DNA from: Sedimentisphaerales bacterium
Lineage (GTDB): Bacteria; Planctomycetota; Phycisphaerae; Sedimentisphaerales; Anaerobacaceae
Reading direction: 5' to 3'
Length of the DNA: 34,170 nt
Assembly (NCBI GenBank): GCA_028282745.1
Contig: JANQHJ010000077.1
Span: forward strand, 1-34,170
Shown here piece after piece: positions 23,252-33,117 of this stretch. Positions within the stretch are counted from its first letter, which is position 1. The number at the start of each line of letters is the position of its first letter. The notes under the pieces were generated by a model. It saw nothing but the letters and a program-made list of their open reading frames with translations, made no database searches and was not told the DNA's origin. The position numbers and the translations under genes were made by a program.

Positions 23252-23409
23252 ATTAAGTGATTTTTGATTGAGGCAATACTCTAAATCCTAAAAATGCAAC
23301 TTTACAGCAAACTTGCACAGGTTTATAATACAGCGATAGATGAGTAAATAACTGCGAATGAACACGGATTTAAGGGAAGAATAATAAGGTAAATTGAAAA
23401 ATTAAGTTG

Positions 23410-23426
23410 AAAGTTCACTGAACTTT
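23410..23426 (+). terminator. Short palindrome, possible terminator of the OB-fold gene
   Basis: AAAGTTCA-C-TGAACTTT is a perfect 8-bp inverted repeat about one base and is followed by TT. It could terminate the OB-fold gene or be an operator for the methyltransferase module. It starts 158 bp after the stop codon. The stretch between holds only a partial interspersed-repeat-like sequence (ACTGCGAATGAACACGGATT at about 23351-23370). Confidence 0.35.
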
Positions 23427-23428
23427 TT

Positions 23429-23566
23429 GGCGTTCATCTTCAAATCGCCAGTTTGAGAAATGCAGGAACGCAAAAGTGTCAGTGCCCCGAATGGGGCGCT
23501 GCGCTCGTGTCCTGCATGGGTTCTGGCGAACCTGAAGATGGCACGATGTTCGTAGCGCCCTTTTTT
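23429..23566 (+). ncRNA. Long nested stem-loop element, candidate structured RNA
   Basis: Four stems stack into one arm: CATCTTCA 23435-23442 with TGAAGATG 23533-23540; TCGCCAG 23445-23451 with CTGGCGA 23523-23529; ATGCAGGA 23460-23467 with TCCTGCAT 23510-23517; and CAGTGCCCC 23480-23488 with GGGGCGCTG 23493-23501 around a GAAT loop. GGCG 23429-23432 with CGCC 23556-23559 can close it, directly followed by a T6 run (23561-23566). Two local hairpins (TCAAA/TTTGA 23440-23456 and GGTTC/GAACC 23519-23532) are possible instead, and their loops are complementary to each other. The element is GC-rich in an AT-rich setting and begins right before the R-M-like gene pair. I cannot assign it to a known family. 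Confidence 0.5.
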
Positions 23567-23592
23567 ATTGCGCTGTTATCACGTTCATACAA

Positions 23593-23629
23593 TCATCGTT
23601 CTGCCAAAAAGATACAAGGCAGGCGATGA
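23593..23629 (+). promoter_or_regulatory. Hairpin covering the start codon of the methyltransferase gene
   Basis: TCATCG 23593-23598 pairs with CGATGA 23624-23629, and CTGCC 23601-23605 pairs with GGCAG 23618-23622. The 11-bp stem hides the ATG at 23626 and part of the ribosome binding site (AAGG at 23616-23619). This layout could limit translation of the methyltransferase, or serve as an operator at the DNA level. Confidence 0.5.
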
Positions 23630-24615
23630 GTATGAGTAAAAAGACATTAAACAAAAATCTCCATAAAGCAAAGAATGCCAAAAAGGATGAGTTTTATACT
23701 CAGCTCCCTGATATTGAAAGAGAATTGAAACACTATACGCGGCATTTTAAGAATAAAACGGTTCTTTGCAACTGCGATGACCCGAGAGTGAGCAATTTTT
23801 TCCACTATTTTTCATACAATTTCGAGGAACTCAAACTAAAGAAGCTCATTACCACCTGCTATAAAAATCAGGATATGGAACTGTTTAGCCGGAATAAATC
23901 AGAAAAGGCAATCTATCTGGAATACGAGGGCGATAAAAACAACAACAAAGTTCCAGACATCGAAGAGATTGGCATTAAACACTTAAAATCAGACGGCGAC
24001 TTTCGCAGCGAAGAATGTATTGAACTGTTAAAACAAGCCGACATTGTTGTTACCAATCCGCCTTTTTCATTGTTTAGAGAGTATGTCGCACAGTTAATTA
24101 AATACGATAAGAAGTTTGTAATTATTGGCGCCTACAATGCAATATCATATAAGGAAATCTTTCCTCTAATTAAAGATAACAAAATGTGGTTGGGTTATGG
24201 GTTTAAAGGTGGGAATGCTTACTTTCAAACTACGCATGCAAGGAAGTTCGCAAAAGGAGTTTACAACGAAGAAACAGGTCTTGTTAAATTTAGAAACGTT
24301 ACTTGGTACACCAATTTAGACATTGCTAAACGCCACGAGAAATTTATTTTTTACAAGCAATACAACAAAGATGAATATCCAACTTACGATAACTACGATG
24401 CGATAAATGTCAACAAGACTAAGGAAATTCCCGCAGACTATGACGGGGTTATGGGAGTGCCAATAACATTTTTAGATAAATACAATCCAGACCAATTTGA
24501 AATTATAGGCATAGACAGACCTTTAGTAGAAGAAATTACTGGCAGAGTGAGTCGTTTTAGAATTAACGGTAAAGAAATTTATGCAAGAATAGTTATAAAG
24601 AATAAAAGATTATGA
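23626..24615 (+). CDS. EcoRI-family adenine-specific DNA methyltransferase
   Basis: A 329-residue N6-adenine methyltransferase similar in size and layout to M.EcoRI (about 326 residues). The family-type start KNAKKDEFYTQLPDIEREL is at residues about 15-34; a SAM-site stretch LCNCDDPRVSNFFHYF spans about 47-62; and the catalytic NPPF motif is at 144-147 (VVTNPPFSLF). The later FRNVTWYTNLD and GVMGVPITFLDKYNP stretches also fit the family. It methylates adenine in duplex DNA with SAM; the recognition site cannot be read from the sequence. No EcoRI-type endonuclease gene is present: the downstream gene, overlapping by 4 bp (ATGA), is a DUF262-HNH protein. A second in-frame ATG lies at 23632. Genes of this pair are AT-rich compared with the flanking housekeeping genes, which suits acquisition. 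Confidence 0.92.
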   Translation: MSMSKKTLNKNLHKAKNAKKDEFYTQLPDIERELKHYTRHFKNKTVLCNCDDPRVSNFFHYFSYNFEELKLKKLITTCYKNQDMELFSRNKSEKAIYLEYEGDKNNNKVPDIEEIGIKHLKSDGDFRSEECIELLKQADIVVTNPPFSLFREYVAQLIKYDKKFVIIGAYNAISYKEIFPLIKDNKMWLGYGFKGGNAYFQTTHARKFAKGVYNEETGLVKFRNVTWYTNLDIAKRHEKFIFYKQYNKDEYPTYDNYDAINVNKTKEIPADYDGVMGVPITFLDKYNPDQFEIIGIDRPLVEEITGRVSRFRINGKEIYARIVIKNKRL

Positions 24616-25694
24616 AAATAGAACTTAAAGAGATTACAGTCCGTGAATTGACGGAGGGTTATGAAGATAATGCCGAGGGTGGTGTTGTCGGCTTTGGCGG
24701 CAGGCTGGATATTCGCCCGCCTTACCAGCGGGAGTTTATTTACAAGGATAAACAAAGAGACGCGGTTATAACTACCCTGACAAGGGATTTTCCGCTTAAT
24801 GTGATGTATTGGGCGGTTCGTGATGATGGTAATTTTGAAATTATAGACGGCCAGCAGCGAACGATTTCGGTTTGTCAATATGTAAGCGGCGATTTTTCAT
24901 ACGAAAGAAGATACTTTCACAACCTGCAGGATGACGAGCAGGAGCAGATACTTAACTACAAGCTGATGATATATTTTTGCAGCGGCACCGACAGCGAACG
25001 GCTGGATTGGTTTAGAACCATAAACATAGCAGGTGAACAACTTGCCGACCAGGAACTGCGAAATGCCGTATATGCAGGCTCGTGGGTAACAGACGCCAAG
25101 AGATATTTCAGCAAAACCGGTTGTGCTGCTTATGGTATGGGTGGTGATTATTTAAGCGGAACAGCAATACGTCAGGACTATTTAGAAGCTACCATTAAAT
25201 GGATTAGTAATGATGATATTGAGCATTATATGGCCAAGCATCAGCACGAGCCAAACGCAAATGAATTGTGGCTTTATTTTCAAAGTGTAATTAATTGGGC
25301 CAAAGCAGTATTTCCAGGGTATCGCAAGGAGATGAAAGGCATACAATGGGGAGTTCTTTATAATGAGTTCAAAGACCAAAAATTTGACTCAAAGAAACTT
25401 GAAGAAGAAATTACTAAACTGATGGAAGATGAAGATGTTACGAATAAAAAGGGTATTTACCCGTATGTTTTAACTCGAAACGAAAAGTATTTGAATATCC
25501 GCGCTTTCAGGCCTAAGCAAAAAAGAGAAGCGTACGAAAGACAAAAAGGGATTTGTCCGGCCTGTAAAAAACATTTTGAAATTGAAGAAATGGAAGCCGA
25601 CCATATCACACCCTGGCACGAAGGTGGAAAAACAACGGAAGATAATTGTCAAATGTTATGCAAAGAGGACAACAGAAGAAAAGCGGGAAGATAA
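24612..25694 (+). CDS. DUF262-HNH nuclease (GmrSD/SspE-like effector)
   Basis: A 360-residue protein. The N-terminal DUF262 (ParB/Srx-like) domain shows RPPYQREFIY with PYQR at 37-40 and IIDGQQRTISV with DGQQR at 79-83, the two signatures linked to nucleotide use in GmrS- and SspE-type proteins. The C-terminus is an HNH nuclease with a Cys4 zinc site: C315xxC318, H331 in EADHITPWH, N345, C346, C350 and N354. DUF262 proteins usually carry DUF1524 nuclease domains and act in defence against modified phage DNA; here a canonical HNH replaces it. The ATGA overlap with the methyltransferase implies coupled translation and joint function, most likely a restriction-modification-like unit. The residues needed for nicking appear intact. 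Confidence 0.9.
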   Translation: MKIELKEITVRELTEGYEDNAEGGVVGFGGRLDIRPPYQREFIYKDKQRDAVITTLTRDFPLNVMYWAVRDDGNFEIIDGQQRTISVCQYVSGDFSYERRYFHNLQDDEQEQILNYKLMIYFCSGTDSERLDWFRTINIAGEQLADQELRNAVYAGSWVTDAKRYFSKTGCAAYGMGGDYLSGTAIRQDYLEATIKWISNDDIEHYMAKHQHEPNANELWLYFQSVINWAKAVFPGYRKEMKGIQWGVLYNEFKDQKFDSKKLEEEITKLMEDEDVTNKKGIYPYVLTRNEKYLNIRAFRPKQKREAYERQKGICPACKKHFEIEEMEADHITPWHEGGKTTEDNCQMLCKEDNRRKAGR

Positions 25695-30564: not shown

Positions 30565-30646
30565 TCTTTTTCCTTTCTGAATTACGGTAAAAACTTACAA
30601 AGTCATTGTAATCTCGATTAAACATACTTATTAGTATATAATAAAA

Positions 30647-30705
30647 AGAAGACAAATGCCGGTTTTGACTATTAAAAAAGTTCTTTTTATTCATTAAGTT
30701 AGAGA
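30647..30705 (-). repeat. 59-bp dispersed repeat, copy 2
   Basis: This part of the bamA-ompH gap is identical, in reverse complement, to 1897-1955, and weaker identity continues to about 30633. On the minus strand it starts four bases after the bamA stop codon, the same relative position as copy 1 after the unknown membrane gene. No transposase or tRNA is close. Confidence 0.85.
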
Positions 30706-30708
30706 CTC

Positions 30709-33117
30709 TTAGAACAACCTGCCCACAGAGAAGCTGAACATTTGCGTATCATCATCTTCGTGCTTCATGAACGGATGGGCGAGCTCAAATCTCATCGGTA
30801 CAGGCCCAAACCACTGCGGTATCATGATCTGCAACCCAATACCGGCACTGGCACGATAGCCGCCCTCTTCGATAATACCGCTATCGACAAACAGGATTCC
30901 CGCAAAGGTGTCTCCCCCAAGCGGAACTGTAACTTCAGCATTAGCGATAAATATCCAGTCACTACCGACCGGATCTTCATCCCCAGGAACGGTCGTACCA
31001 ACAAAGTTTGCGTCACATGGATCGTCCCAGTCAAAAGCAGGTGGTGCAACCCGTGGGCTGATACCGCGATATTCAAAGCCCCTGATGCCGTAAGCACCTG
31101 TACCACCGGCATAGAACCTTTCGAAAATCGGGACATCGCCGATAGCGGCTGCACCAAGTAGCTTGATAGCGAGAATAGTCTTGTTCTCAGCAAGGTCCTC
31201 GTGAAGTGTGTAGTATCTTCTGTAAACGGCATCTAAAACGCCAAAAGTGTAATCACCAGCAACCTGTTCGTAGCCGGCTGCAAAACTGTAGCCGGAGCTT
31301 GGGTTGTATCTGTCGTCACGTTTATCTTTACCAAAACCGTATCTCAGTCCGAAGATGCTGCTTTTGCCTTTATACTTGATAATTTCTCTTGCAACACCAT
31401 TAGGCAATGGAGTGCTCGTACCTGGTATAAGTTGGTTCGGGCCGGGCTTGTCGAAATCGTTTAAGTTTACGATCTCACCTCTGAACGCAATGCTTCTTCT
31501 CCAGCCGCTCTGATACCTTTTTTCGAAGCTGAAAGAGCCTTTTACTCTTTGCTCGTCATAGACTTCTCTTCCGCGCTCATAACTTGACACGCCCGTATCG
31601 AAGGTGATCGGTTTTTCCTGGAAATATGGATCGGAGAAAGACACCGAATACTGGCTGACCTCGGTACCAGGTTCCAGGGCGATTCTCAGGGTCTGGCCGC
31701 CGCCTTTAAATGCCTTACCTGTAAATATGTCCTTTAGGCTTTTAGGCCTGTCCTTGATATTGAAGTTTCTCTGCTGGTAAACCAATTGTCCAACAATGCC
31801 ACTATCGCTACCGACGCCGGCACCAAACATAATCATACCGGTTTGACCTTCGGTAATATCGACCTGCGCATCCTTTAGTCCGGGCAGCTTACCAGTGGGT
31901 GTAATAGCGGCCCCTTCAGTCACAGCCATATTCCTGATTGTCTTTTCCAGGTACCCCTGGCCGTCACCTTTGGCGATCTCGGCGTTATACCACTGGCCGG
32001 GTGTGAAGCCATATTCGTCAAGGATATGGCGGATAACTTTGTCTTGCGTGCCTTTATTGCCCGTAATATTAATTTGATTAATCTTAAATCTCTCACCGGA
32101 AACAATGGCATATTCAATATTAACCTTATCACCATCGACAAAAACTTTTTTCTTATCAACTTTTGCCTCGATATAGCCTGTTCCACGAAACTTGCCGAGA
32201 AGCTTTTTCACATCGAAGTCTGCCTTTCGGTCATTGTATGTTTTGCCCTGCTCAAGTCTCATTTCCGCGGTCAGTTCTGCTTCTTCGAATACAGTGTTGC
32301 CTGTTATTGAGATCCGGCCGACTGTGTAGGATGGGCCCTCAACAATAACAAAAGTAATTGTCACTTTGCTCTTATCTTCATTGAAATCAAGTTTAGTGGT
32401 AATTTTAATGTCAAGGAAACCGTGTTTATAATAAACCTTCTGCATTTTCTGGATGTCTTTCTCAACTGTCTCGGCCACATAATACTGTTTCATAACCACA
32501 AACTTTCTGGGCCTGGTCTTAACGACCTTTTGCAGCTCTTTGGTCTTTAGCTGCTCGTTACCTTCGAATTTGACATCAGCGATTCTGACACGAGAGCCTT
32601 CCTTAATTCGGTAAATAATGCGTCCCATCGAAAGCTTCTCGGCATCGAGGGTAACCTTTGTGTAGGGATAGCCTTTTGCCTCGTAATGCTCGGCAATGGC
32701 CTTTGCCCCGGTACGGGCCTGGAGAGGGTCGAGATAGTCGCCGAGTTTGAATTCGAGCTTCTCGGCAAGCGTAGTTGACTTGACCCGGGTGTTCCCGACG
32801 AAAACTATAGCTCGAACAAGATTCCTTTCCACAACTACGAATGTGAGTACTACCTTATTGCCCACAATATCAGTACTATAATATGAAAACTCTACTCCTG
32901 AGAGCTGCGCTATCTTTTTTGTGTCCTCTTCGGCGACAGCTGTGCTGAAGACCTGCCCGGCTCGGGAACTTACCTTCTCAAGCACTGAGGTTTCGCTGAT
33001 ACTGCGAATGCCGACGACCTTTACTTCTGAAATAATTTGCTGGGCTAAAACTGTAGATGTAAAAAGAATACATAAAGCCGCAATCAGACTTAATCGGAGA
33101 AAGTACGATTTACGCAT
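30709..33117 (-). CDS. bamA: Outer-membrane assembly protein BamA
   Basis: An 802-residue Omp85 protein that inserts beta-barrel proteins into the outer membrane. A signal peptide (MRKSYFLRLSLIAALCILFTS, cleaved after VLA) precedes five POTRA repeats (residues about 28-400) and the C-terminal beta barrel. The barrel carries GIRGFEYRG, the RGF motif of lid loop L6, and ends in FSFSVGRLF with the terminal Phe required for barrel recognition. The reading frame is open up to 33345, but I chose the ATG at 33117: AGGAG at 33128-33132 stands ten bases ahead of it, a normal signal peptide follows, and the longer version would overlap the dnaB coding sequence. It is 13 bp downstream of the dnaB stop and upstream of ompH. 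Confidence 0.96.
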   Translation of the reverse strand: MRKSYFLRLSLIAALCILFTSTVLAQQIISEVKVVGIRSISETSVLEKVSSRAGQVFSTAVAEEDTKKIAQLSGVEFSYYSTDIVGNKVVLTFVVVERNLVRAIVFVGNTRVKSTTLAEKLEFKLGDYLDPLQARTGAKAIAEHYEAKGYPYTKVTLDAEKLSMGRIIYRIKEGSRVRIADVKFEGNEQLKTKELQKVVKTRPRKFVVMKQYYVAETVEKDIQKMQKVYYKHGFLDIKITTKLDFNEDKSKVTITFVIVEGPSYTVGRISITGNTVFEEAELTAEMRLEQGKTYNDRKADFDVKKLLGKFRGTGYIEAKVDKKKVFVDGDKVNIEYAIVSGERFKINQINITGNKGTQDKVIRHILDEYGFTPGQWYNAEIAKGDGQGYLEKTIRNMAVTEGAAITPTGKLPGLKDAQVDITEGQTGMIMFGAGVGSDSGIVGQLVYQQRNFNIKDRPKSLKDIFTGKAFKGGGQTLRIALEPGTEVSQYSVSFSDPYFQEKPITFDTGVSSYERGREVYDEQRVKGSFSFEKRYQSGWRRSIAFRGEIVNLNDFDKPGPNQLIPGTSTPLPNGVAREIIKYKGKSSIFGLRYGFGKDKRDDRYNPSSGYSFAAGYEQVAGDYTFGVLDAVYRRYYTLHEDLAENKTILAIKLLGAAAIGDVPIFERFYAGGTGAYGIRGFEYRGISPRVAPPAFDWDDPCDANFVGTTVPGDEDPVGSDWIFIANAEVTVPLGGDTFAGILFVDSGIIEEGGYRASAGIGLQIMIPQWFGPVPMRFELAHPFMKHEDDDTQMFSFSVGRLF

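Follow-up and report, generated by a model that had tools for sequence, protein, structure and literature searches.

An apparently undescribed leader-RNA family with two covarying, mutually exclusive folds, a likely transcription attenuator upstream of accessory genes in the planctomycete order Sedimentisphaerales

Results

The locus and the two arrangements of its leader

The window, which is the entire 34,170-nucleotide stretch of a Sedimentisphaerales genome that we analyzed (contig JANQHJ010000077.1), codes on its forward strand for an EcoRI-type adenine methyltransferase (23626-24615; PF13651, E 2e-135) and a second protein combining a GmrSD_N (DUF262-type) domain with an HNH nuclease (24612-25694; PF03235 and PF01844). 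Homologues suggest that the true start of the methyltransferase might be its second ATG at about 23632, as DNA homology to other loci begins at 23631. Elsewhere in the window, positions 1890-1973 and 30629-30712 constitute an 84-nt inverted repeat (94% complementary, arms 28.7 kb apart), which is probably an interspersed repeat.

The element studied here precedes the methyltransferase on the same strand and ends at 23576; it begins at about 23412, or at 23395 if one includes the A/T-rich motif TGAAAAATTAAGTTGAA (23395-23411) just 5' of the folded part. Read from its 5' end, the folded part starts with segment 1 (CACTGA, 23416-23421), x1 (GCGTT, 23430-23434) and the 5' strand of helix P1 (23435-23441), which leads into the local hairpin A (23441-23455) with the loop TCGCCAG (23445-23451). 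These are followed by the 5' strand of P3 (23460-23467), x2 (AACGC, 23467-23471) and the two arms of the apical hairpin P4, namely segment 2 or L (TCAGTGCCCC, 23479-23488) and segment 3 or R (GGGGCGCTGCG, 23493-23503), whose P4 strands in this copy are 23480-23488 and 23493-23501. The 3' half comprises x3 (CGTGT, 23506-23510), the 3' strand of P3 (23510-23517), the local hairpin B (GGTT-CTGGCG-AACC, 23519-23532), the 3' strand of P1 (23534-23540; flanking pairs add to P1 in this copy) together with x4 (GCACG, 23541-23545), and segment 4 or the tail (GTAGCGCCC, 23552-23560). A U-run (23561-23566) and segment 5 or D (GCGCTGT, 23570-23576) complete the element. The loops of hairpins A and B are the two strands of helix P2 (23445-23451 with 23523-23529).

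These parts can be paired in two ways. In state I, the 5' half would fold on itself as H1 (segment 1 with L and x1 with x2) and the 3' half as H2 (R with the tail and x3 with x4), with the loops at the tips of H1 and H2 kissing via P2. In state II, the two halves would pair with each other as a rod made up of P1, P2, P3 and L:R as P4, in which x2 has x3 as its partner. P2 is thus common to both states.

The window copy folds far better than expected by chance: positions 23410-23590 have a minimum energy of -77.3 kcal/mol, against a mean of -51.6 (sd 4.3) for 200 dinucleotide shuffles, none of which was equally stable (z -6.0). The reverse strand of the same interval folds about equally well. 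The preliminary description of this DNA, made from sequence alone, had proposed a strong nested stem-loop with four stacked stems of 8, 7, 8 and 9 bp and, as an alternative, two local hairpins with complementary loops. These claims held: P1-P4 were recovered within a few bases, as were both hairpins with their loops TCGCCAG and TGGC. Two others needed correction. First, the extent it had proposed, 23429-23566, is too short, as it leaves out segments 1 and 5. Second, it had placed a T-run after the closing stem; the run actually comes after the tail, whose pairing with the right arm of P4 has the strongest support.

A leader-RNA family largely of one order

Blastn searches of 60 related genomes recovered full-length relatives (about 164 nt) with 70-82% identity from other genera and families. 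A covariance model built from 17 of these (R1) finds nine copies in the window's own genome, seven with E below 1e-21, and copies in 87 of 161 genomes of Sedimentisphaerales (order judged from the titles of homologous records). The family numbers at least 151 copies, at least 150 of them in the order, with up to 10 different copies in a single genome; hence, the element is not unique. Across the phylum Planctomycetota, R1 has matches in 17 of 392 sampled genomes; those from outside the order reach no more than about 32-52 bits but retain the core. The titles of records with matching contigs nearly always name Sedimentisphaerales, Phycisphaerae or Planctomycetota; matches in records titled Syntrophaceae, Odoribacter and Kuenenia are all in metagenome-assembled genomes that are possibly mislabelled. 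One contig of IMG/VR carries a copy: this high-scoring leader (3300031566_005571, 2235-2400) lies on a viral-classed contig without an obvious gene directly downstream.

Neither the window nor 15 homologous loci have a match in Rfam 15 at the gathering threshold or a convincing weaker one, and a literature search for such leaders in planctomycetes or with PEP-CTERM genes returned nothing relevant. The element is one copy of an apparently undescribed family of leader RNAs, each about 160 bases long. Several genomes have groups of two or three leaders (L066-L072) in the same orientation, with spacings of about 400-1,800 nt and, in some cases, paralogous PEP-CTERM genes in between.

Covariation of two mutually exclusive sets of helices

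Both arrangements show compensatory change. In 89 non-redundant copies, the helices of the rod are 93-99% paired with covariation z of 20 to 45 (P1, 98% and 45; P2, 98% and 30; P3, 93% and 43); 44 of its 45 pairs show double changes, with 976 double-change cells against 263 in shuffles, and 95% of the cells are paired against 32-41% when the strands are slid. For state I, double changes are seen at 38 of 40 pairs (P2 included), in 383 cells against 103 in shuffles, and 94% of the cells are paired against 35-48% in slid versions. P2 excepted, the state I pairs were absent from the model used for the alignment. Among its helices, R:tail (right P4 arm with the segment preceding the U-run) is 97% paired (z 11), x1:x2 94% (z 8.8) and x3:x4 93% (z 10). 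The stem of hairpin B is likewise well supported (PB, 96% paired, z 11) and that of hairpin A in part (73-79% paired).

We further used a chain test that depends little on the alignment, in which each copy's own partner segment is compared with partners swapped in from other copies (143 non-redundant copies). All pairs of neighbors score strongly (5':L, z -10.2; L:R, -17.7; R:T, -14.6; T:D, -8.1, where T is the tail), as against the non-neighbors (5':T, -1.5; L:D, -2.9; R:D, +1.6; 5':R, +0.9; L:T, +2.8; little or none for 5':D). The same order is obtained with a strict set of 54 dissimilar copies. The shuffles and swaps ignore phylogeny, for which the non-neighbor pairs and the slid versions serve as the controls. 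A disjoint set of 56 sequences (A5) reproduces the main helices; here, however, the pairing of the 5' segment with the tail scores as well as 5':L, making that part of the chain less certain. In set A4, both 5':tail and a local pairing of the 3' strand of P1 with the tail covary barely or not at all. Of 151 copies, 123 have all four neighbor pairings. Four or more consecutive T residues within 14 nt of the tail are likewise seen in 123 of the 151, against a background of 9%, and about a fifth of the copies lack a clear U-run.

The wobble pairs identify the folding molecule: across all helices, G-U cells outnumber A-C cells by 520 to 53, or about 10:1, pointing to selection on the RNA of the + strand rather than on folded DNA or the opposite strand. 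P2 has a single G-U among 643 cells, which we interpret as befitting a strict loop-loop helix. Conserved spots are seen in the AAA before the loop of hairpin A, in the GG/CC of hairpin B and in an A-U pair within P2; as they lie in the kissing core and largely persist in distant relatives, this core is the likely sensor.

Two other hairpins were considered and rejected. A local terminator GGGCAC...GTGCCC at the 3' end is tempting in several sequences, but the pairing (Ploc) has a z of only about 2 in set A4 and 0.2 in set A5. The 5' dyad AAAGTTC-ACT-GAACTTT is 66% paired as a hairpin and shows no covariation.

Position, orientation and promoters

The leaders face genes. In the set of 151 copies, 127 of the 144 closest downstream genes run in the same direction as the leader, at a median distance of about 60 nt, and most copies have start codons with ribosome-binding sites downstream; upstream neighbors share the leader's orientation in 58 of 125 cases, as expected by chance. 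Promoter-like hexamers, often sigma-70-like, are found upstream, with the -10 box ending about 24 nt 5' of the element (mean best promoter score 9.6 versus 8.5 in shuffles). Where transcripts would be expected to begin, 82 of 150 copies have the motif (G)ACAATTnAATA, as against none at the control position; in the window copy, this place is taken by TGAAAAATTAAGTTGAA. No clear -35/-10 promoter was seen for the window copy, and a sigma-54 promoter at GGCACGATGTAGC was rejected for its unsuitable spacing, which was judged by eye and not tested. In the copies that we read, the stretch from the expected transcript start to segment 1 has no start codon for a leader peptide.

A portable module upstream of unrelated genes

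The downstream genes are mostly unrelated to each other. A Pfam scan of 124 of their products recovered the PEP-CTERM motif in 26, beta-helix repeats in 14 and dockerin in at least six, with others containing laminin-G-like, zinc-ribbon, subtilase and further domains. Several of the genes code for DNA methyltransferases or restriction proteins (EcoRI-type, N6_Mtase, D12, MT-A70 and HSDR_N), and single NCBIfam matches name the anti-phage proteins IteA and MADS2.

The nearest relative of a leader is in the same genome in 30 of 151 cases (2.6 expected) and precedes a homologous gene in only 23 of 151. Unrelated genes of different genera can be preceded by leaders about 85-90% identical, most such pairs losing similarity within about 20 nt 5' and 0-40 nt 3' of the element. 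The nearest homologues of the methyltransferase, with 79, 76, 56 and 54% identity (in genomes G050, G022, G068 and G124, respectively), lack a leader, and homologues in G041 and G148 possess one. We therefore reject any special link to the restriction-modification pair: the preliminary description was correct in placing the element upstream of such a pair, but the association is incidental. Further, two sister species of one genus (g46) are devoid of the element. The leader is gained or lost independently of the gene, and is most likely a portable module placed before unrelated accessory genes, by a route that remains undetermined. A comparison in g46 aimed at the ends of the insertion found no orthologous empty locus. 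In one of the loci with a leader (L176, G148:C120:1017-3566), the EcoRI-type methyltransferase gene is in two parts about 1.4 kb apart, as if by insertion.

Discussion

A likely attenuator

Two of three features that define an attenuator, mutually exclusive helices that covary in both states and a stem directly followed by a U-run upstream of a gene, are present; the third, regulated termination at that site, is inferred. We consider it likely, with a probability of about 0.7, that the leader attenuates transcription by choosing between two mutually exclusive folds. Under this proposal, H2 ending at the U-run would act as an intrinsic terminator. The rod would occupy R such that the terminator cannot form, and, once the polymerase has passed the U-run, the tail would pair with segment 5. 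P2, being shared, could nucleate the exchange of strands, and the choice would be tilted during RNA synthesis by an unidentified signal, whether a small molecule or a protein, acting at the kissing core. That the leader is transcribed, that H2 terminates transcription, that a signal drives the choice and which of the states is on are all inferences made without transcript or transcript-end data.

Energetics raise an objection to this mechanism. Up to the U-run, the window copy has -74.4 kcal/mol as the rod and -59.3 kcal/mol in state I computed without the kissing loop; with a rod more stable by 15 kcal/mol, the RNA might simply stay in it. The 7-bp kissing helix, we infer, would narrow this gap. 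Moreover, the 5' half of the window copy on its own folds as H1 before the right arm exists, making it plausible that the outcome is decided during transcription. The signal cannot be deduced because the downstream genes share no metabolite; a riboswitch remains possible, though these genes indicate no single metabolite and there are no binding data.

The preliminary description had offered three readings: a structured RNA, an attenuator whose competing folds include a kissing loop, and a mobile-element site of folded single-stranded DNA. The first is supported by compensatory changes in homologues. The second has comparative support from compensation in both folds, the U-run after the alternative helix and the fixed place and orientation before genes. 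The third is unsupported in light of the G-U bias, the orientation toward genes and the lack of an integron integrase above the cut-off in the window's own genome. Among the observations that it held would refute a structured element, a single occurrence and variation without compensatory changes did not apply, as both a family and compensation were found; the Rfam search that it suggested matched no family.

Alternative explanations

The alternative that survives best, although we regard it as unlikely, is a leader of fixed structure without a switch, which protects or insulates the 5' end of the mRNA or acts in translation, the alternative pairings being a by-product of an ancestral hairpin duplication. 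In its favor, the rod is computed as the stable form and the halves are alike (segment 1 resembles R, L the tail, and AACGC GCACG); some pairings may indeed look alike if the halves are diverged copies of one hairpin. However, if the alternative pairings were merely left over from duplication, double changes would not repeatedly restore 5':L, R:T, x1:x2 and x3:x4 in diverged copies, nor would the non-neighbor combinations be spared, and a U-run at the end of a stabilizer is left unexplained.

The remaining alternatives are far weaker. A gene for a trans-acting small RNA that stops at the U-run and just happens to precede genes often would accord with the promoter-like sites that many copies have of their own and with the terminal U-run. 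This is very improbable, because genomes can hold as many as 10 distinct copies and almost every copy closely precedes a start codon in its own orientation. Against it, too, segment 5, which lies 3' of the U-run, shows conservation and covariation with the tail.

Also very improbable is a recombination site of folded single-stranded DNA (comparable to the attC of integrons) or a short mobile element carried with genes. Such an element would account for similar copies before unrelated genes across genera, the similarity being confined to the element and a few bases, and for its absence from some sister species. It is already disfavored by the roughly tenfold excess of G-U over A-C, a mark of selection on the RNA of one strand, by the nearly constant direction toward a gene with random orientation of the upstream neighbor, and by the integron integrase (TIGR02249), which exceeds the cut-off in only three of 41 relatives and not in the window's own genome. 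An integron cassette or attC site was accordingly rejected. The three genomes with integrases above the family cut-off are G022, G012 and G024, of which G022 also has many weaker matches; no link to the leader was apparent.

Finally, a processive antitermination RNA like put or EAR, modifying the RNA polymerase instead of choosing between folds, might suit the long secreted-protein genes found downstream of many copies, somewhat as EAR sits in exopolysaccharide operons, but it is very unlikely, as the best supported feature here is a covarying terminator/antiterminator pair, and neither put nor EAR is known to rest on one of this kind.

Parallels in known regulatory RNAs

The attenuator that we favor has partial parallels in several systems. 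As in the trp-type attenuators, consecutive segments pair with their neighbors, with 1:2, 3:4 and the U-run opposed to 2:3 (with 4:5). Unlike them, the planctomycete leader has no apparent leader peptide and adds P1, P2, P3 and the kissing core between the switching segments; by analogy, it would work like a trp-type attenuator without being a member of that class. The guanidine-II riboswitch (mini-ykkC) is likewise built from a tandem of hairpins, with a proposed kissing interaction between the two loops (PMC7544219, PMC9300104). Its hairpins bind guanidinium, whereas the planctomycete loops are about 7 nt long and covary freely, and the planctomycete hairpins additionally swap strands into the rod; further, the Rfam model for guanidine-II has no match at the gathering score in the window or the 15 homologues. 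In the ColE1 RNA I/RNA II pair, 7-nt loops kiss prior to forming an extended duplex. The planctomycete leader resembles it in having complementary hairpin loops able to nucleate a longer duplex and differs in having both hairpins on one leader with a terminator-like U-run at its end. The Rhodopirellula-1 motif was described as a candidate cis-regulatory RNA of Planctomycetes and Proteobacteria, with no Rfam accession in the accompanying table (Weinberg et al., 2010; PMC2864571). As its consensus was not compared, it remains possible that a relative of the present family was discovered earlier under that name.

Implications for the accessory genome

The family is large and apparently undescribed, and it shows compensatory changes for both conformations, which is uncommon for a switch found from sequence alone. 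The occurrence of one RNA before secreted surface proteins as well as restriction-modification genes suggests that a single signal governs part of the accessory genes of the order, and the portability of the leader offers a case of a regulatory part moving independently of the gene it controls. A bolder reading, on which we would not quite wager, is that these leaders are a new class of signal-sensing RNA, in which a kissing-loop core shuttles strands between a two-hairpin terminator and a rod, and which has been passed between genera to place the accessory genome of one planctomycete order under a common signal. If this were true, much of that accessory genome, both surface proteins and anti-phage genes, would answer to one signal.

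Variations on the architecture are seen on the 3' side of the U-run. First, six loci (L194, L195, L196, L200, L201 and L121) have an extra ACGCCA(A) box 20-30 nt 3' of the U-run, complementary to a TTGGCGT near the 5' end, which may close the read-through RNA with one more helix. Second, in L187, L188, L189 and L199, the U-run is directly followed by a strong ribosome-binding site, together with a very short open frame (ATGAAAATAG...), both of them 5' of the gene chosen as the downstream one.
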